IMG/VR virus record: IMGVR_UViG_3300044712_002653
Span: 1-49,963 of that record
Source: a virus
DNA: 49,963 nt
Strand: one strand, 5' to 3'
A model generated the notes under the pieces. The model worked only from the letters and a program-made list of their open reading frames with translations. It made no database searches and had not been told where the DNA came from. Position numbers and translations under genes: made by a program. Positions 6,580-36,233 of this stretch are shown here, one piece after another; the stretch's first letter is position 1; each line of letters begins with the position of its first letter.

Positions 6580-7077
6580 TCACCTCCAGGGCGTCGGCTT
6601 CAGGCCGGCGGGCAGGTACAGCGGGTGGACGGGGTGCCCGTCCTTCGACAGGCGGAGGACGTGGAGCGCCGGACGCCCGGCGTTCGCCACCATCCGCTTC
6701 ACGGTGTCGCCGCGGTGGAGGTGAGCGCCGTGGGTGCCCCAGGCCGCGACGGTGAGCGCGCAGCGCAGGGTCACGTCGAGGATCGCCGCGTCGTTCCCCG
6801 CGCCGACGGGGTCGCGGTGCCCGTAGAGCACGTCCGGCTTCGGCGAGCGCAGGGCGAAGAGGTTGATGACCTCGAACCCGCCGTAGCCCCACGCATGGGC
6901 GAACCCGAGGCACCGGCGCAGCGTCGGGTCGAGCTGCGTCTCGTCGGCCGTCGACGGGTTCAGCATGAGGAAGGCGACGCGCGGCGCGGACCACGACCAC
7001 GCTCGCCAGAGGCGGTAGCGGTAGACGCGGACGTCGTCGAAGCGCGCGCCCTGGTCGACGTAGGTCGGCTCAGGCAC
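6580..7077 (-). CDS. DUF1643 domain protein
   Basis: A 165-residue member of DUF1643. Diagnostic features are FLMLNPSTADETQLDPTLRR (about 36-55), GFAHAWGYGGFEVINLFALR, DPVGAGNDAAIL, the AAWGTHGAH segment and the C-terminal DGHPVHPLYLPAG. The family is common in phages and bacterial accessory regions, and its biochemical role is unknown. The GTG start has GGAGG six bases upstream and overlaps the upstream DUF5131 gene by 8 bases. Confidence 0.9.
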   Translation of the reverse strand: MPEPTYVDQGARFDDVRVYRYRLWRAWSWSAPRVAFLMLNPSTADETQLDPTLRRCLGFAHAWGYGGFEVINLFALRSPKPDVLYGHRDPVGAGNDAAILDVTLRCALTVAAWGTHGAHLHRGDTVKRMVANAGRPALHVLRLSKDGHPVHPLYLPAGLKPTPWR

Positions 7078-8053
7078 CCGCCACCTCCGGCATCTGGCGG
7101 ACCCGCAGGTCCTCCGGCCACTCCTCGGGATCGGCGCCCTTCGGGTCCGGGAGGCCGTCCTGCTCGCGCGCCCAGACGGCGCCGAGCTGCTTCACGAAGC
7201 ACGGGACGCTCATCGCGCGGCAGGACTCGACGATCCAGCGGACCCACTCCACGGCGCAGGGGCGCGGGCGGCTGCCGCTCTCGCCGCCGGCGATCACCCA
7301 GCCGATCCCGGGGTCTACCGTGAAGTCGAACGGCCCTGGGCCGATGCGGCGGAGATCGCGACGGAGGAGGACGTCGAGGAGATCGACGCGACCGATGAGC
7401 GGCTCGCAGGAGAGGAAGCGAACGGTGGCGGGCGTCGCGAGGAGGTGCGGGATCCGCTCGTCCGCGGTCCGCTGGTCCTCGACGGATACGCCCACCCAGA
7501 CGTTCGGGAGCGGCCACTCGTCCGGGTCGAAGGCGGAGCCGCAGCCCCGATCGACGCCGGCCTTGTCGAGGTAGGCGCAGGTCCAGGAGCAGATGTCCCC
7601 GCCCGCGTCGCCAGCGCGGCGGCGCCCAGCCGTGCTGGCGACCCACTCGAACCAGCGCCGCGCCCGCTCCGGCCTCTTCGTGAGGACCTGGAACGTGTGC
7701 TGCTTCGAGGCCGCCATCACCCCGAACACCGCGGCGATGAACGTGTCGGGCACTCCCTCGTGGAATAGGTCGCTTTGGTTCGCGACGGAGATCCGCCGGG
7801 GCTTCTTCCACCGGAGCGGGACCTCGAGCTGCTCCGGCAGGAGCGAGACCTTCCCCGTCCAGCGGAGCACGCCCGCCGGCGTCTTCTCGACGAGGCCCGC
7901 GCGCGGCCCGGCGATCTTCGGGTTCGGGTTGTGGGCCATCCGCCAGACGTCGCGCACGGCGTAGCAGCGCGCGCACCCGGCGCTCGCTGGCGAGCAGCCG
8001 AGGATCGGACTCCAGGTTGCGTCCGTCCAGGCGATGCCGGTGCCGTCGCTCAT
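7070..8053 (-). CDS. Phage Gp37/Gp68 family protein (DUF5131)
   Basis: A 327-residue member of the Gp37/Gp68 (DUF5131) family. Visible signatures: GIAWTDATWSPILGCSPASA leading into GCARCYA (a CX6CX2C cluster near residues 20-31), SLLPEQLEVPLRWKKPRRI, ANQSDLFHE, the FQVLTKRPERA motif, NVWVGVSVEDQ, RFLSCEPLIG, WVIAGGESG and CFVKQLGA. Conserved cysteines and barrel-like strand spacing suggest a metal or Fe-S cofactor enzyme, but no activity is established. The ATG lies just past the end of the frameshifted methyltransferase gene. Confidence 0.9.
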   Translation of the reverse strand: MSDGTGIAWTDATWSPILGCSPASAGCARCYAVRDVWRMAHNPNPKIAGPRAGLVEKTPAGVLRWTGKVSLLPEQLEVPLRWKKPRRISVANQSDLFHEGVPDTFIAAVFGVMAASKQHTFQVLTKRPERARRWFEWVASTAGRRRAGDAGGDICSWTCAYLDKAGVDRGCGSAFDPDEWPLPNVWVGVSVEDQRTADERIPHLLATPATVRFLSCEPLIGRVDLLDVLLRRDLRRIGPGPFDFTVDPGIGWVIAGGESGSRPRPCAVEWVRWIVESCRAMSVPCFVKQLGAVWAREQDGLPDPKGADPEEWPEDLRVRQMPEVAGA

Positions 8054-8057
8054 CAGC

Positions 8058-8817
8058 TCATCCCTCCGTTCCGCTGAGCGCGAGCTCCGCCTGGTCGCGC
8101 TCGAAGATGGTCACCGCGCGCATCGGGAACCCGAAGCCGACGGAGAGGCCGAACACCTTGATAACTCTGCAAAATGGGGGGGGGGTTCGGGGTGATGTAG
8201 TGGACGAACCCGATGCGCCCGCACGGCTTCACGACGCGCGCGGCCTCGCGGAGGAGGTGCGCGGGGCGCGGGTAGTCCACTCCGTAGAGGTCCTTCGCGT
8301 AGTGCTCGGTGTACGGCGGGTCGAGGAGGACGGCCTCGACCGAGCCGGTCGCGAACGGCAGGTCGCGCCCGTCGGCGAGGATGTCCGGCCGCGCCTCGGG
8401 GCGGACGTCGACGCGGATCCCCTCGCCGCGCGGCAGGCCGCCTGAGCAGACGTGGACCACGTGGCGGCGGTCGCACTTCAGCCAGGGCAGGATCTTCGGG
8501 ATGAAGGTGATCGGGTACATCCCGAAGACCGGCTCGGGCCCGAGCTCGTCCTGGGCGAGGTCGTCGTAGAGGAACAGGATCGCGGGCCGCGAGGGAGCGG
8601 CGAGGTCCTTCGCGCCGATGCGCTTCACGCCGCGCGGCTCGCCCATGCGGGCGCGCAGCTGCGGCCAGTCGGGCTTCGAGCGGCGCGAGGCGTCCTCGAC
8701 CCCGAACTTCCGCTTCCGTCGGCGCGTGTTCGTTTCCTCGACAGGGTTCCGCACCCGGTTCACCGGCGTGTGCGGGATGTTGCGCGGCCTCCGCGCGCCC
8801 TTGTCGCGCTTGCTCAC
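8058..8817 (-). CDS. DPPY methyltransferase, frameshifted at a run of ten C
   Basis: Class I SAM-dependent methyltransferase-like protein. The frame from GTG 8817 carries HVVHVCSGG (motif I position, about 119-127) and VLLDPPYTEHYA (motif IV, DPPY at 166-169), then GRIGFVHYITPNPPP. At the ten-base C run (G on the + strand, 8176-8185) the frame leaves the conserved path. Removing one C restores a 252-residue protein ending in VFGLSVGFGFPMRAVTIFER and stopping at 8058. As given, translation instead runs to 8053 with an unrelated tail. The tract may be phase-variable or a sequencing error. The start overlaps the HNH-like gene as GTGA. The target base is unknown. Confidence 0.8.
8176..8185 (-). 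repeat. Poly-C(10) tract inside methyltransferase gene
   Basis: Ten consecutive G on the + strand (C on the coding strand). Nine would keep the conserved methyltransferase C-terminus in frame; ten shifts it. Such tracts are hot spots for slipped-strand mispairing. Confidence 0.9.
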
Positions 8818-9467
8818 CGGGCCCCCGTCGGCGTGGTCGTGACGCCCTTCGCCGTGGCGAGGGCGATCTTCCCGTCGAGGATCTCGGCGGTGCGGTCGAA
8901 GCCCGCGGCGAGATCGAGGAGCCCGCGCCGGCGGGCCTCGCCTGCCATCTGCATCGCCCAGATGCGCCCGGCGCCCCGCGCCCACGCGGGTGAGGCCTCG
9001 GTGCGCTTGTCGCAGTCGTCGCAGATGGCCGCGCAGCTCGTCTCGTCCTCGAGCGTCACCCGCTCCGAGCCCTTCAGGACGTGGTGCATCGTCTCGGGCT
9101 CGCCGGCGCGGCAGAACTCACACAGGTTGCCGAACCACTTCCGGCCCACCACCAGGATTCGCAGGCGCCCGATGGCTCCGGCGGCGCGCTCGGCGCGGCG
9201 GGCCGCTTTCGGCGATCCCCCGGACGGCGGCGCGAACGCGAGGCCGCTCTTGTCGATCCGCCCCGTCGGGCGGGCGCCCGGCTCTGCCGCGGCGGGGGCG
9301 GCGGTGCGGACCGGCCGCGGCTCGAGCTCGTGCTTCTCGATGGCGGCGACGATGCGGCGCGCCTGGGCGCGGCGGCCGGGCCAGTCGTCGCCGGTGCAGG
9401 CGATGGCGAGCTCGCGCGCCAGTTCGCGCAGCCACATCGGCCAGGGGCGGGACTCGAGGAGGTTCAC
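8814..9467 (-). CDS. HNH-like zinc-binding protein
   Basis: A 217-residue protein. Residues about 1-55 form an amphipathic helical region (WPMWLRELARELAIACTGDD). After an Ala/Pro-rich linker comes CEFCRAGEPETMHHVLKGSE followed by CAAICDDCDKRTEASP: two CxxC pairs with a central HH, the layout of an HNH/McrA-like beta-beta-metal fold. Whether it cleaves DNA is uncertain because the final His/Asn is not obvious. GTGA overlap with the next gene upstream sets the start. Confidence 0.65.
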   Translation of the reverse strand: MNLLESRPWPMWLRELARELAIACTGDDWPGRRAQARRIVAAIEKHELEPRPVRTAAPAAAEPGARPTGRIDKSGLAFAPPSGGSPKAARRAERAAGAIGRLRILVVGRKWFGNLCEFCRAGEPETMHHVLKGSERVTLEDETSCAAICDDCDKRTEASPAWARGAGRIWAMQMAGEARRRGLLDLAAGFDRTAEILDGKIALATAKGVTTTPTGAR

Positions 9468-9823
9468 GCCGCGGACCTCCGCGAGGCGGCGCGCGCCCGC
9501 TGGGCGTCCTTCGTGCAGGTCCAGCACAGGCCGGCGCGCCGGGGCGGGTTCGGGCAGCCGTCGGTCGCGCAGCGCGGTGCCTCGGCGCGCCTCGGGGGGA
9601 GCCGGGTCGCGCTCCGCAGGTAGTCGATCGCGGCGAGCTGCTCGGGGTCGAGGGGTTCACCGCGGCCGGCGGGGGCGAGGTCCTCGTCCCGGTCGTCCCA
9701 CGCGCCCAAGCACGAGGAGCAGGCCTCCGCTGCGCGCCACACGCCGCGCGCGTCCTGGACCTGGAACGTCCCCCGAGGAACGGGGTCGAGCGGGATCGCC
9801 CGGTGGCAGAAGTGGCAGGTCAC
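9464..9823 (-). CDS. Zinc-ribbon hypothetical protein
   Basis: A 119-residue protein with three cysteine pairs: MTCHFCHRA at the start, CSSCLGAWDDRDED in the middle, and CATDGCPNPPRRAGLCWTCT near the end. It looks like two small zinc-binding modules around a linker with an EQLAAIDYLR helix. No family was named. The GTG start overlaps the upstream stop as GTGA. Confidence 0.6.
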   Translation of the reverse strand: MTCHFCHRAIPLDPVPRGTFQVQDARGVWRAAEACSSCLGAWDDRDEDLAPAGRGEPLDPEQLAAIDYLRSATRLPPRRAEAPRCATDGCPNPPRRAGLCWTCTKDAQRARAASRRSAA

Positions 9824-10179: not shown

Positions 10180-10421
10180 CTGAGACCTCCGAGGGAGAGC
10201 TGGCCGCGCGACGAGGGCGGGGCGGCCGCGGGCGCCACCCCCGGCGCCGGGAGCGCCTGCGCCCGGGGCGTGGGGCGCGGCGCCGTGCCGGCGCCGGGGG
10301 TCGGGCGGGCGGGGGCAGGTCGATAGGAGCGGCCGCCGCGCGGGGCGGCCGGGTAGCCCTGGCGCGCGAGGGCGCGGGCGCGGACGAGTACCTCCGCGGC
10401 GGCGGCGACGTCGGGGGTCAT
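10176..10421 (-). CDS. Small hypothetical protein
   Basis: An 81-residue protein: a short helix (DVAAAAEVLVRARALARQGY) followed by a Pro/Arg/Ala-rich tail ending QLSLGGLR. The conserved-looking end motif could be a partner-binding peptide, but nothing proves it. The ATG overlaps the cytosine methyltransferase stop as ATGA. Confidence 0.5.
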   Translation of the reverse strand: MTPDVAAAAEVLVRARALARQGYPAAPRGGRSYRPAPARPTPGAGTAPRPTPRAQALPAPGVAPAAAPPSSRGQLSLGGLR

Positions 10422-12166
10422 GCGGCGTGGACCTCCAGCTCCTCGCGCGCTCGGCCGTCCTCGCGAACCCAGATCCCGTCGGAGGAGAGGAACCAGGTCC
10501 CGAGGGATCCGGCGAGGAGCGCCTTCAGGATCGAGAGCGCGATGGCGGTGGCAGCCTGGACCGGGACGGCGTTGCCGATGCGCTCCCCCCAGCCCGCGGC
10601 GTTGCGTCCCGCGAGGCGGAGGGGCTCGCCGCGCACGCGCGCGGGCAGGCCCTGGAGCGCGGCGCGGTCGAGCAGGGTCATCGGGCGGTGCCAGGTTCCG
10701 TCGGCCGCGACGATGACCGGGACGTTCCGGGGCGCGCGCCGCGGGTCGGCGACTGCCACGGTGCCGTTGTCGATGCGGCCTCCGGTCACCGTCGCGGCGG
10801 CCTCGTCCCAGCGGAGGACGCCGTACGCGGTCGCGCGCGGGACGCACGTCGGCCGCGGGTCGGCCACGGACCCTGGTCCGGTTCGGACGTTGGAGGCTCC
10901 GCGGACGGTGGGCGACGGCTCGGCCCAGGGCACGACGCCGAGCGAGCCGCGGTAGGGGGAGTGATCGAGTGCGAGGCGCGGGTCGGCGACGCTCGCCGGG
11001 GTGTTCGACCGCGCCGGCGCCATCGCGCCGGTGATGGCCGGGGCGGCCGATTCCCACGGCACCACGCCGAAGGTCCCGCCGCGCGAGGTATCTCCGCGCC
11101 CGAGCCGCGGGTCGGCGACCGCGAACCCGCCGTTGGTCCCGCCGCCAGCGACCGTGCGCGCGGGCTCGTCCCACGGCCGGACGTCGTACTTCGCGAAGAC
11201 CTCGCGGCGCGGCTGGCCCGGCTCGAGCGGCGTGAGGATCCGCGGGTCCGCGACGGCGGCCGGGCCCGTCGACGTGCTCACCGAGGCCGTCCCGTTCACG
11301 GCGCCCGTCGGCTCCTCCCACGACTCCACGCCGAAGTGCCCCGGGCGGCCCTTGAACGACGCCGCGTTCGCTCCGGTCTGCGCGAGGAGCGCCTCGGGGA
11401 TCGAGGTGGGAAGGTCGCGCCAGTCGCCGCCGGCCGGGATGAGGGCGAGCCGAACCCAGTTCAGCCACGAGATCCGGGGAAGGCGGTGGAGCTCGCCGGC
11501 GGAGCCGTCCTCGGGGAGGGGCAGCTGCCCCAGGACCTCGCCGCACCCCTTCACGCGCTGGAGGGGCGGCCGGTAGATGAACGCCGGCACGGCGGCCGGG
11601 CGCCTGGCGACGAGGAGGAACCGGCGCCGGTGCTGGCCGAGGCCCCCGATCTCGCCGCAGTCGTGCGTCCCTTCGTGGAAGACGTACCCGTACTGCGCGA
11701 GGAGCTGGCGCGCCCGGGCGAGGTTCTCGGCGCCGCGCGACATGATCCCGGGGACGTTCTCGAGGATGATCGCCGGCGGCGGTTCGGACCAGGTCTCGCA
11801 GATGAGGTACAGCCCCTTGATCACGAGCTCGTTCAGCTCGATGTACTTCTGCTGCTCGGCGCTGGCGCGAGGGAGGAGCCGCGAGTACCCCTTGCACGGG
11901 GGCGAGAGGAAGACGCAGTCGGGGCGGCGGGGCCCGGCGAAGGCGAGCAGCTCAGCGGGCGAGAGCGTCGCGAGGTCCGCGCAGAGCGATGGCCCGTCGG
12001 CGAGGCGCTCGAAGTCGGCGCAGGCCTCGGGGTCGAGGTCGATGCCGCCGAGGTTCACGAAGCGGGCTCGGTCGCGGCCGAGTTGCGCCATCGCCTCGAG
12101 GAACCCGCGCGCGCCGGCGCCGAGTCCGCAGAACGGGAACAGGACGGTGAACTCGCGGACGCTCAC
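10418..12166 (-). CDS. DNA C5-cytosine methyltransferase with internal repeats
   Basis: A 582-residue C5-cytosine methyltransferase. Motif I is FPFCGLGAGARG (about 10-21); motif IV is FLSPPCKGYS with the catalytic Cys at 91; motif VI is ILENVPG (ENV at 136-138); motif VIII is QHRRR at 178-182; motif IX is near RPMTLLDRAALQGLP (494-508); motif X is GNAVP at 531-535. Between VIII and IX, where the target-recognition domain lies, sit five repeats ending VADPR (278-476). No cognate nuclease is adjacent, so it probably protects phage DNA from host restriction or tunes phage gene expression. GTG start, GTGA overlap. Confidence 0.93.
   Translation of the reverse strand: MSVREFTVLFPFCGLGAGARGFLEAMAQLGRDRARFVNLGGIDLDPEACADFERLADGPSLCADLATLSPAELLAFAGPRRPDCVFLSPPCKGYSRLLPRASAEQQKYIELNELVIKGLYLICETWSEPPPAIILENVPGIMSRGAENLARARQLLAQYGYVFHEGTHDCGEIGGLGQHRRRFLLVARRPAAVPAFIYRPPLQRVKGCGEVLGQLPLPEDGSAGELHRLPRISWLNWVRLALIPAGGDWRDLPTSIPEALLAQTGANAASFKGRPGHFGVESWEEPTGAVNGTASVSTSTGPAAVADPRILTPLEPGQPRREVFAKYDVRPWDEPARTVAGGGTNGGFAVADPRLGRGDTSRGGTFGVVPWESAAPAITGAMAPARSNTPASVADPRLALDHSPYRGSLGVVPWAEPSPTVRGASNVRTGPGSVADPRPTCVPRATAYGVLRWDEAAATVTGGRIDNGTVAVADPRRAPRNVPVIVAADGTWHRPMTLLDRAALQGLPARVRGEPLRLAGRNAAGWGERIGNAVPVQAATAIALSILKALLAGSLGTWFLSSDGIWVREDGRAREELEVHAA
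10739..11335 (-). repeat. Five-unit coding repeat in the cytosine methyltransferase
   Basis: Five degenerate units at residues 278-309, 327-354, 366-397, 409-438 and 448-476. Each reads roughly aromatic-G/D-V-x-x-W-x-E/S-x-x-x-T/A-V/I-x-G, then a variable Gly/Asn/Thr stretch, then VADPR. The VADPR motifs are 45, 43, 41 and 38 residues apart. Confidence 0.9.
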
Positions 12167-12525
12167 GGCGCCTCCGGAGCGGGCGCCGACGCGAGCTCGG
12201 GGTCGTCGAACCAGAGCGAGCATAGGTAGGCGACGCCGGCGATCTTGTGCTCGTGCTTCGGCGCCCACGAGGAGAGGAGCGCCTTCAGGCACCGCGCGGC
12301 CGCGCTCTTCTCGACACCCGGCCTCGGGACGAGGCGGTCCCACCATGCGCGGTCGCCGCCGATCGCGAACCAGCGGCTGATCTGGCTGCACCATGGGCTC
12401 GTCTCGCGACGGAACTCGTCGGGGATCTCGTGCCAGGGCGGGAGGTGCTCCATCGTCCCCCAGGCCATCTCGACGTCCTTCACGGCCGGGGGCGCCGCGG
12501 GCGGAGTCCAGGGCTTCTCAGCCAC
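12163..12525 (-). CDS. Hypothetical phage protein
   Basis: A 120-residue protein rich in Trp (EMAWGTMEHLPPWHEIPDEF, SPWCSQISRWFAIGGDRAWW) with a helical C-terminal half containing WAPKHEHKIAGVAYLCSLWF. The pattern is familiar from phage hypothetical proteins near replication or methylase genes, but no function is known. The GTG start overlaps the upstream gene by 8 bases. Confidence 0.6.
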   Translation of the reverse strand: MAEKPWTPPAAPPAVKDVEMAWGTMEHLPPWHEIPDEFRRETSPWCSQISRWFAIGGDRAWWDRLVPRPGVEKSAAARCLKALLSSWAPKHEHKIAGVAYLCSLWFDDPELASAPAPEAP

Positions 12526-19004: not shown

Positions 19005-19466
19005 ATGGCCCCGCTCGCTGCACAGATCGGTCTCGACTTCAGCGCCAAGCCGGCGCCGGGGTCGAGGCCTGTCCGCGGCGAGCGGGTGCCCGACCCGGTC
19101 TTCCTGAGCATCCGCGCCGAGGTGGCCCGAGAGATCGCGTCCCGCCGCGGCGAGGCCCAGGCCGTCACCGGGGAGCGCCTTGCCGAGATCGTGAAGGAGC
19201 GGCTCGGCCTCGAGGCGATGACCCTGCGGACCGTCCAGCGCCGCTGCGAGGAGGCGGTCGAGCAGATCCGCGACGAGGGCGAGCAGCTCATCGCCGCGAC
19301 GGGGGCAGGGAAGTTCACCCCGGAGACGGTCGAGGAGCTCGAGCGTGACCTCCGGCAGTCGACGGCGCGCGCCCTGAAGCAGCTCCGGCACCGGTCCCGT
19401 GTGAAGCGGGCGCTGCTCGAGTTCCGCGGGCAGCAGCGGCTGAGCGCCGCGGAGATCGCGCGATGA
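19005..19466 (+). CDS. Hypothetical helical protein
   Basis: A 153-residue, mostly helical, charged protein (SIRAEVAREIASRRGEAQAV; LRTVQRRCEEAVEQIRDEGE) ending in a basic helix. A segment RLAEIVKERLGLEAMTLRTV could be an HTH. The stop overlaps the MT-A70 start. Function unknown. Confidence 0.5.
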   Translation: MAPLAAQIGLDFSAKPAPGSRPVRGERVPDPVFLSIRAEVAREIASRRGEAQAVTGERLAEIVKERLGLEAMTLRTVQRRCEEAVEQIRDEGEQLIAATGAGKFTPETVEELERDLRQSTARALKQLRHRSRVKRALLEFRGQQRLSAAEIAR

Positions 19467-20311
19467 CGCCCCCGCTTCCCACCACGCCGGGCGGCTGGCC
19501 CTGCATCGTGGCCGACCCGCCGTGGTCGTTCCGTGACACGGGCTCCCGTCTCGCCCCAGACCAGCGCAGGAAGCGCGGGAAGAAGAAGGGCTACAGGACC
19601 CTCTCGCTCGACGACATCGCGGCGCTGCCGATCCGCGACATCGCCGCGAAGGACGCGTTCCTGTTCCTCTGGACGACCGACGCCCACCTCGTGGACGGCT
19701 CCGCCGCGGAGGTCGCGATCCGCTGGGGCTTCGAGCCGAAGCGGGTCTGGACGTGGGTGAAGGCGACGCCCCCGGCCGTCGACCTGCGGATGGCCGTGGC
19801 TGGTCAGGTCGACCTCCTGCGCGAGCAGGGGTACGGCCGCGATGCCCGGTCGCTCCGTCGCGTCCTCACGGCGACGAAGCGCGACCTCCACCTCGGTACG
19901 CTGGGCTTCGGGGGAGGCCACTACGTCCGGACCGCGGACGAGAAGGTGCTCATCTGCCGCCGCGGCCGGGCACGGGTCCTCGTCCACGACGAGCGGAGCG
20001 TGTTCTTCGCCCCGCGCCGCGCGAACGGCCTCACCGGCGAGGTCCACTCGACGAAGCCGCCCGAGCTGCTCGCGAAGGTCGAGCGGGTCTGCATTGGACC
20101 CCGCCTCGAGCTCTTCGCCCGCGAGGAGCGCCGAGGCTGGCGCGCGTGGGGGAATCAGGTGCCGCCGTACCAGGTCGGCGACGGCTGCCCGAACTGCGGG
20201 AGCACGAAGACGATCACCGGCCGCGGCGGGTGGCTCCTCGACTGCCGCGAATGCGGCTTCACCTTCACCGATCGCAGTCCTGAGGTCGTGGCGCGGAGGT
20301 CAGCTGCATGA
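19463..20311 (+). CDS. MT-A70 family adenine methyltransferase with zinc ribbon
   Basis: A 282-residue protein. IVADPPWSF (DPPW at 18-21) is the MT-A70 catalytic motif; YRTLSLDDIAALPI, FLFLWTTDAHL, WGFEPKRVWTWVKA, FGGGHYVRTADEKVLI and the KPPELL segment follow the family order. It is expected to methylate adenine at N6 in DNA. A C-terminal extension CPNCGSTKTI...CRECGFTF (about 235-263) is a zinc ribbon, not part of the usual catalytic core, and could help DNA binding. It overlaps neighbours on both sides by ATGA. Confidence 0.9.
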   Translation: MTPPLPTTPGGWPCIVADPPWSFRDTGSRLAPDQRRKRGKKKGYRTLSLDDIAALPIRDIAAKDAFLFLWTTDAHLVDGSAAEVAIRWGFEPKRVWTWVKATPPAVDLRMAVAGQVDLLREQGYGRDARSLRRVLTATKRDLHLGTLGFGGGHYVRTADEKVLICRRGRARVLVHDERSVFFAPRRANGLTGEVHSTKPPELLAKVERVCIGPRLELFAREERRGWRAWGNQVPPYQVGDGCPNCGSTKTITGRGGWLLDCRECGFTFTDRSPEVVARRSAA

Positions 20312-34064: not shown

Positions 34065-36233
34065 ATGGCACAGCGCCTGAAGATCCCGGGTGACCTGCAC
34101 ACCCGCGCCGCGTTCGAACCCTCCACGTTCGACGAGAAGGCTGGAACCGTCGAGGTCGTCTTCACGACAGGAGTGCGCTGTCTTCGCCGATCCTGGGAGG
34201 GGCCGTACTACGAGGAGCTCGAGGTCTCCGAGAGCGCCTGCAACCTGTCCCGGCTCAACAACGGCGCACCGTACCTGGACGACCACCCCGAGAAGTACGG
34301 CATCACGGGCGTGCGGACGGTCCTCGGGGTCGTCGAGCGCGCCTGGCTCGCCGGGCCGGCCGGGAAGAAGGAAGGCCGAGCGCTGCTCCGCTTCTCGTCG
34401 CGAGACGAGGTGAAGCCGATCAAGCAGGACGTGAAGGACGGAATCCTGCGGCACCTCTCGATCGGCTACTCGATGGAGCAGATCGAGAAGGTCGAGGAGA
34501 TCGAGGGCGTTCCCGTCTACCGGGCCACGCGCTGGACCCCCTACGAGATCAGCCAGACCCCCATCGCGTTCGACGACGCCGCAGTGGTGCGCTCGCGCAC
34601 CGAGCAGGAATTCACCGAGGTGGAGGTCATCTCCACCGCCGCATCCACCGCCGCAGAGGAGATGAGATCCATGGAGCCCAAGCCCGTCACCACCGCCACT
34701 CCCCCGGCCGCGGCTCCCGCGGCCCCCCCCGCGGCCGCCCCGGCCCCGCTCGCGCCTGCCGCCGCCCCGGACGCCGCCTCGGTCCGGTCCGCGCTCGATG
34801 CGGCCCAGTCCGCGAACGCGCGCGCCGCGCAGGTCTCGGGCGACGCCGTCCGGCTCGCCGCGGAGCGCGCGGCCTCCGAGGAGCGCGACCGGATGGTCGA
34901 GATCAGGTCGCTCGTCCGGAGCATCCCGAACATGGATGGCGCCGCGGGCGACCGGCTCTCGGACGAGTACATCCGGTCGAAGGCGACCGTGAACGACGTG
35001 CGGAAGGCCGTCCTCGACAAGCTCCTGAACAACGAGGAGCCCGACATCCGCTCGCACCTGTCGATCACGGCGGGCGATGACGAGGCCGAGAAGTTCGTGC
35101 GCGGCGCGTCGGCGTGGTTCTTCCTCCACACCGGCCAGCGCTCCCTCCTCGAGCTGGCGAAGGCGAAGCGGCCCGACGAGTTCAAGGACATCGTCTTCGA
35201 CGCCGGCGAGTTCCGCGGCCTCTCTCCGCGCGAGCTCGCGCGCGAGGCGCTCCGCCGCCGCGGCGTCGAGACCCGGGCCATGGACCCGATGAAGATGATC
35301 GGGCTCGCCTTCACGTACCGGGCGAACTACCAGACGATCTCCGACTTCGCGACGATGCTCGAGAACGCGCTCGGGAAGGTGCTCCTCGGCGCGTACGCGA
35401 CCCAGAACAACACCTGGCCGCGGATCTGCAAGGTCGAGGAGGTTCCCGACTTCCGCGCGTCGGCCCGCTACCGCACCGGATCGCTCCCGACCCTCGACGT
35501 GGTCCCGGAGCACGCGGAGTTCAAGACGGGCGTCATCCCGGACGCGGCCAAGTACGCCGTGCAGACCGCGACGTACGGCAAGATGTTCGGCGTCTCCCGG
35601 CAGATGATCATCAACGACGACATGGGCGCGCTCGCGAACCTGGCCGTCGAGATGGGCAAGGCCGCGGACCGCACCATCGAGAACGCGGTGTACGCGCTCC
35701 TCACCGCCGGCTCCGGCCTCGGCGCGAACCTCGCGGACGGGAACCCGTTCTTCTACGCGGCCCGCGGCAACATCAACAGCTCGGGCTCGGCGCTCTCCGT
35801 GGCCGGCATCGACGCGGACCGCGTCGTGATGCGCTCCCAGAAGGACCCGGCGGGGAACGACTACCTCGACCTGAACCCCGCGATCCTGCTCGTGCCGGAG
35901 ACGCTGAAGGGCACGGCGCAGGAGATCAACGACGCGCAGTACGACTTCGACAACGCAGGCACCAACACGACCGGCAAGTTCATGCGGCCGAACAAGGTCC
36001 GCGGGCTGTTCCGCGAGGTCGTGTCGTCCCCGCGCCTCTCCGGGACGCGGCGCTACGTCATCGCCGACACGCTGGAGGCGATCATCGTCGCGTTCCTCCA
36101 GGGCCAGGGCCGCGGTCCGCGGCTCGACACCGAGAACGGCTGGAGGGTCGAGGGCGTGGAGTACAAGGTCGCGCTCGACGCGAAGGCCCAGTTCGGCGAC
36201 CCGAAGGCGGCCGTCACCAACGCCGGCGCGTAA
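34065..36233 (+). CDS. Prohead protease / major capsid protein fusion
   Basis: A 722-residue fusion. Residues 1-200 are a prohead protease of the U35/S78 type: YLDDHPEKYG gives catalytic H74, and GILRHLSIGYS gives S132. A Pro/Ala linker (about 205-240) leads to a helical scaffold-like region (about 245-400) with EERDRMVEIRSLVRSIPNMD. From about 425 to the end is the major capsid domain (DFATMLENALGKVLLGAYAT; WPRICKVEEVPDFRASARYR; GVSRQMIINDDMGALANLAV) related to Mu gpT-type heads. Self-cleavage would release shell subunits, so no separate scaffold gene is needed. Confidence 0.92.
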   Translation: MAQRLKIPGDLHTRAAFEPSTFDEKAGTVEVVFTTGVRCLRRSWEGPYYEELEVSESACNLSRLNNGAPYLDDHPEKYGITGVRTVLGVVERAWLAGPAGKKEGRALLRFSSRDEVKPIKQDVKDGILRHLSIGYSMEQIEKVEEIEGVPVYRATRWTPYEISQTPIAFDDAAVVRSRTEQEFTEVEVISTAASTAAEEMRSMEPKPVTTATPPAAAPAAPPAAAPAPLAPAAAPDAASVRSALDAAQSANARAAQVSGDAVRLAAERAASEERDRMVEIRSLVRSIPNMDGAAGDRLSDEYIRSKATVNDVRKAVLDKLLNNEEPDIRSHLSITAGDDEAEKFVRGASAWFFLHTGQRSLLELAKAKRPDEFKDIVFDAGEFRGLSPRELAREALRRRGVETRAMDPMKMIGLAFTYRANYQTISDFATMLENALGKVLLGAYATQNNTWPRICKVEEVPDFRASARYRTGSLPTLDVVPEHAEFKTGVIPDAAKYAVQTATYGKMFGVSRQMIINDDMGALANLAVEMGKAADRTIENAVYALLTAGSGLGANLADGNPFFYAARGNINSSGSALSVAGIDADRVVMRSQKDPAGNDYLDLNPAILLVPETLKGTAQEINDAQYDFDNAGTNTTGKFMRPNKVRGLFREVVSSPRLSGTRRYVIADTLEAIIVAFLQGQGRGPRLDTENGWRVEGVEYKVALDAKAQFGDPKAAVTNAGA

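Follow-up and report, generated by a model that had tools for sequence, protein, structure and literature searches.

The question raised by this locus is whether a run of ten identical bases inside a phage methyltransferase gene serves to turn that gene on and off at random, or whether it reflects a sequencing slip, a decaying gene, or a site of recoding. Methyltransferases that switch randomly in this way are well known from bacteria. The gene lies in a 49,963-base IMG/VR-type virus record, the whole of which was analysed and is hereafter called the window; its G+C content is 72%, and its gene complement is myovirus-like (terminase, portal, capsid/protease, tail sheath, and baseplate J genes). 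We consider it probable that the gene is a phage-borne contingency locus, in which slipped-strand events would switch the methyltransferase and of which the window was assembled in the OFF state. More broadly, comparison across the family suggests that, in the many environmental phages that carry it, this gene has gained slip-prone repeats on repeated occasions, with random on/off switching of the enzyme as the outcome.

The interrupted methyltransferase gene

An earlier note on this DNA had described a ten-base homopolymer at 8176 to 8185, and had held that nine C on the coding strand would give a 252-residue methyltransferase with a conserved C-terminus, with ten C replacing that end by an unrelated tail read to 8053. 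All of this was borne out. The run is G10 on the plus strand and C10 on the coding strand, the assembled gene translates to 254 residues in which the conserved end is lost, and one base fewer in the tract yields 252 residues ending ...NPPPFCRVIKVFGLSVGFGFPMRAVTIFERDQAELALSGTEG (stop at 8058-8060), an end that homologues share. The features of the region are as follows.

8053..8817, minus strand: methyltransferase gene as assembled, GTG at 8817 to TGA at 8055-8053; 254 residues with the alternative tail (putative OFF form)
8176..8185, minus strand: C10 tract (G10 on the plus strand), the candidate slip site, lying within the codons for a conserved Asn-Pro-Pro-Pro motif
8058..8175, minus strand: conserved C terminus, which is out of frame with the remainder of the enzyme and corresponds to strands beta6 and beta7
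8053..8175, minus strand: alternative tail encoded by the C10 frame; shows no conservation at the protein level, and substitutions track the other frame
8814..9527, minus strand: upstream gene with weak similarity to HNH endonucleases (E 0.007), overlapping the methyltransferase start by 4 bases
7070..8053, minus strand: downstream gene, DUF5131 / phrog_2045 (Pfam E 5e-72; phrog_2045 E 7e-82), beginning at the methyltransferase end

The tract exceeds every other G/C run in the window, none of which reaches nine bases; Markov models of the window predict 0.35 runs of at least ten at order 1, falling to 0.03 at order 3. The methyltransferase start and the stop of the upstream gene overlap within GTGA (8814-8817), and both possible methyltransferase stops fall at the ATG (8053) of the next gene; thus, both gene ends fit an operon.

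The window protein matched the phrog_3816 DNA methyltransferase profile (E 4e-16), as did all 28 of the 28 aligned family members, and its catalytic motif reads DPPYTEHY, of which DPP is invariant across those 28. By its profile match and DPPY motif, the gene is assigned to the class I SAM-dependent methyltransferases of the phrog_3816 family. Pfam returned only weak, generic methyltransferase domains and none of the mod or PglX kind, and NCBIfam matches were likewise weak and unrelated, with no membership in the mod or PglX families. Every complete homologue is read in a single frame through the tract site and ends in a conserved block with an Arg-Ala (RA) pair and a short strand; in the window, the other frame after the tract is 87% identical to the family consensus.

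In an AlphaFold model of the intact relative L001 (mean pLDDT 76), the tract falls in a loop after the strand at 160-170, and the part lost from the window comprises two strands, 180-189 and 197-204, which correspond in the class I methyltransferase fold to beta6 and beta7. Intact relatives have the complete seven-strand fold, and the window as assembled has its last two strands out of frame. The C10 product should be incomplete, because beta6 and beta7 of the modelled fold would be removed. That DNA is the substrate is taken solely from the PHROG labels, and the label 'DNA methyltransferase' does not settle the matter, because the solved folds nearest to the model belong to Trm11/TrmN, which act on RNA, and TaqI, a DNA methyltransferase, ranks lower.

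Two further methyltransferases are encoded in the window, one of the C5-cytosine type (10418-12394, minus strand; Pfam E 8e-13) and one of the MT-A70 type (19463-20311, plus strand; E 1e-22). Because of these, the phage may modify its own DNA heavily.

Repeat length and reading frame among relatives

The closest relative, L001 (73% identical), carries AAT CCC CCC CCC AAT at the same site, a C9 tract that leaves the frame intact. The more distant L002 (65% identical, from a different metagenome) has C10 and is broken at the same place, with the other frame picking up with NCRVVQVFGLSTGFGFPMRAVTIFERE. A third relative, L018, has C9 at this site in other codons, and L003, L008, and L009 encode the region mostly by CCG codons, without a tract. 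The tract is absent from the majority of homologues. The CCC CCC shared by the window, L001, and L002 was not counted as evidence, since fourfold sites are about 50% identical among them and the sharing is hence only mildly unusual. In the tree, L018 is set apart from the window clade with strong support; therefore, tracts have been gained or lost at least two times.

The two broken copies retain the imprint of the frame that they no longer read. Over the 27 codons after the tract, the window and L002 (both C10) differ at 3, 1, and 9 sites in the first, second, and third ON-frame codon positions, respectively, so that nine of the 13 differences fall at third positions (p = 0.009). It follows that the ON frame was translated during most of the separate history of these two phages and that their out-of-frame states are recent, reversible, or artefacts. 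The earlier note had proposed comparison with homologous phage genes as a check: the ten-base frame and its tail are not conserved and the other frame is kept, so the on/off reading is not refuted thereby. Separately, no stop interrupts the C10 frame of L002 (2719-4053) before it enters the following gene, whose frame is of sigma-like helix-turn-helix type; the resulting fusion spans 444 residues and is probably a coincidence.

A second branch of the family carries a poly-G tract in an N-terminal DGGGYP motif (GAC GGG GGG GGG TAT). Three of its members, L016, L019, and L039, are near-identical phage contigs from three different metagenomes. L019 and L039 have G9, with L019 giving a full 193-residue protein, and L016 has G8 and is broken, with a stop after residue 77. 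Over 11,430 bases, L016 and L019 are 99.97% identical and differ by two SNPs and one indel, which is the tract; over the 8,415 bases that L016 has in common with L039, there are one SNP and one indel. This difference, as read from the contigs, is the strongest single piece of evidence for a switch, and it belongs to relatives, not to the window's own phage; length variation among near-identical genomes is thus found in relatives, with the window's own species represented by one known length. In the gene before the L016 methyltransferase (10880-11180) there is also a long array of imperfect 18-base repeats (…VYGDARVYGTARVYG…) with a hexapeptide-type pattern, and the array lengths are the same in L016 and L019.

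Repeats of a different kind occur elsewhere in the gene. In L107 (contig 3300045283_000058; 833-866), an (AGGC)8.5 array lies in the methyltransferase N-terminus, six codons past the start, and in L027 a C9 run sits close to the C-terminus, where a frame shift would alter little. Across the family, then, repeat length sets the frame in C10 (window, L002), C9 (L001), G9 (L019, L039), G8 (L016), and (AGGC)8.5 (L107). L107 additionally has a G10 (747-756) about 60 bases upstream of its methyltransferase start, closing a short upstream frame.

Searches for further relatives extended the family little. A bacterial genome collection scanned with the first alignment yielded no relatives, a DNA motif scan of bacterial genomes yielded one (a Phenylobacterium MAG), plasmids yielded none, phage isolates yielded distant relatives only (among the distant matches, HHTV-1 gene 73, one of the phrog_3816 phage methyltransferases, by tblastn), and a further motif scan added few members.

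Enrichment of runs and competing explanations

Synonymous codons were shuffled within each gene to give the number of runs expected. G/C runs of at least nine occur in seven of 35 family genes, against 0.75 expected from such shuffles, and none of 2000 shuffles of the family reached seven. Shared ancestry collapses the seven cases to about four independent ones, which still exceeds the 0.75 expected (p = 0.007). In a control family of phage genes, 0 of 52 had such a run (0.43 expected), a count that omits that family's one known long tract (G004) because the contig piece stops short of it. Over 34 records (1.32 Mb), seven of the 14 runs of at least nine lie inside the methyltransferase gene, itself accounting for about 1.7% of the sequence (p = 1e-9; collapsed to four of 11, p = 2e-5). 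In six tract-bearing records, the gene's tract is the sole run of at least eight, although these records were picked for having a tract and therefore show only that such runs are rare elsewhere. On its own, the window tract is not improbable, being reached in 13% of synonymous shuffles of the window gene; the NPPP tract alone is thus unremarkable, and the case rests on the family. Runs of nine by gene starts in G001 and G002 were set aside as candidate switches, since they look intergenic or like ribosome-binding sequence. In a different phage gene (start MKFWSVTWRADPRARAIADRHYSRQ; L044:748-757, at 68047-68056 of contig 3300044693_000247), a G10 splits the coding sequence across two frames; among about 56 relatives inspected, this copy alone has such a run and alone is clearly split at the motif.

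A sequencing or assembly slip, under which the tract in the phage itself is of in-frame length and a homopolymer artefact has added the tenth base, could account for any single allele, and every frame break found does lie at a run of 8 to 10 bases, a setting in which indel errors cluster. We regard it as unlikely. Three independent family contigs (window, L002, and L016) are broken at such tracts, in both directions, and error would not produce the enrichment of long tracts in this gene. Further, a C8 run in the capsid/protease gene of the window (34723-34730) leaves its 722-residue frame intact, providing an internal control for homopolymer error.

Ordinary decay, in which a dispensable gene was knocked out at a chance slip-prone run and is drifting toward a pseudogene with no selected switch, also has points in its favor. 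L011 (9193-9303) and L114 (8881-8906 region) have lost the SAM-binding/catalytic core while keeping the gene ends, so some phages tolerate its absence, and the tract codons alone are not improbable. This reading nevertheless seems quite unlikely, given that both C10 copies still show ON-frame conservation beyond the break, that differing kinds of repeat recur in the family above the synonymous expectation, and that the near-identical L016 and L019 differ at the tract plus two SNPs only.

A frame change conserved among homologues, as in programmed recoding, was not found: C10 occurs only in the window and L002, and L001, L003, L008, L009, and others are read in one frame. Recoding, whereby the C10 gene would make both forms as a fixed feature through transcriptional slippage or +1 ribosomal frameshifting at CCC-C (a known +1-prone site, at 1% or less in E. 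coli beside a start codon; PMC4519876), fits the C10 and conserved downstream frame common to two relatives (window and L002) but is very unlikely, since L001 has an in-frame C9 and needs no shift, the L016 break is a G missing rather than extra, the alternative tail lacks conservation, and a tract is absent from most homologues.

The proposed switch and its relation to known systems

We therefore return to slipped-strand switching as the favored explanation. In the model we propose, the hypermutable C tract in the Asn-Pro-Pro-Pro codons would gain or lose a base through slipped-strand mispairing in replication; an in-frame length would give the full methyltransferase (ON), and ten C would put an unrelated tail in place of the last two core strands (OFF). 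In other phages, equivalent repeats elsewhere in the gene (poly-G in DGGGYP, a tetranucleotide by the start codon) could act likewise. Slippage would presumably be fast and reversible, with an inactive OFF product and an ON enzyme that methylates DNA, and the phage could benefit through bet-hedging, whether the risk is host restriction or the cost of modification. Of the on/off switch posited in the earlier note, what has gained support is the existence of repeats at in- and out-of-frame lengths in relatives, the difference between near-identical phages, and the several origins; the switching itself is inferred from these, and the window copy could be a slip. Further, we lean toward the broader view that these widespread small phage methyltransferases form a recurrent contingency locus, in which poly-C, poly-G, and AGGC repeats evolved independently at different sites and each population would hold both ON and OFF forms. 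If true, a switch on a phage modification enzyme has been built several times over, and modification state is hedged at the level of phage populations, for instance in the face of host defenses that punish unmodified or modified DNA.

In a literature search that took in few subscription journals, we found neither a description of a switch in the phrog_3816 family nor an account of any phage methyltransferase controlled by a repeat switch. The nearest parallels come from three systems. First, receptor-binding proteins of Campylobacter phages undergo poly-G phase variation (Sorensen et al. 2021 Cell Rep, as cited in PMC11868660). As far as that citation conveys, these too are phage genes with hypermutable G/C homopolymers whose expression is switched by frame, although there the protein binds receptors and plaque switching was measured in isolates, whereas here the gene is a methyltransferase of uncultured phages, known from sequence alone. 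Campylobacter genes vary from 7 to 13 G or C (PMC6321876), and the lengths used by known switches are, on this comparison, similar to those of the present tracts. Second, PglX of the Streptomyces phage growth limitation system is turned off by a change from G8 to G7 and switches at 1e-2 to 1e-4 (PMC4365076). It resembles the present gene in being a methyltransferase with a short G tract in G+C-rich DNA, but PglX is a bacterial defense enzyme of another methyltransferase family that acts with PglW/Y/Z, and the present gene encodes a small stand-alone phage enzyme. Third, type III mod methyltransferases are phase-variable (phasevarions, as cited in PMC3711429). Insofar as that citation describes them, they share poly-C/G or tetranucleotide repeats in the methyltransferase frame, as in the (AGGC)8.5 near the L107 start, but they are bacterial, have a restriction subunit as partner, and are built of different domains; next to the window gene, no such partner was seen. 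Poly-G switching in phages and phase-variable methyltransferases in bacteria are thus already known, and what would be new, within the literature searched, is such a switch on a phage methyltransferase.
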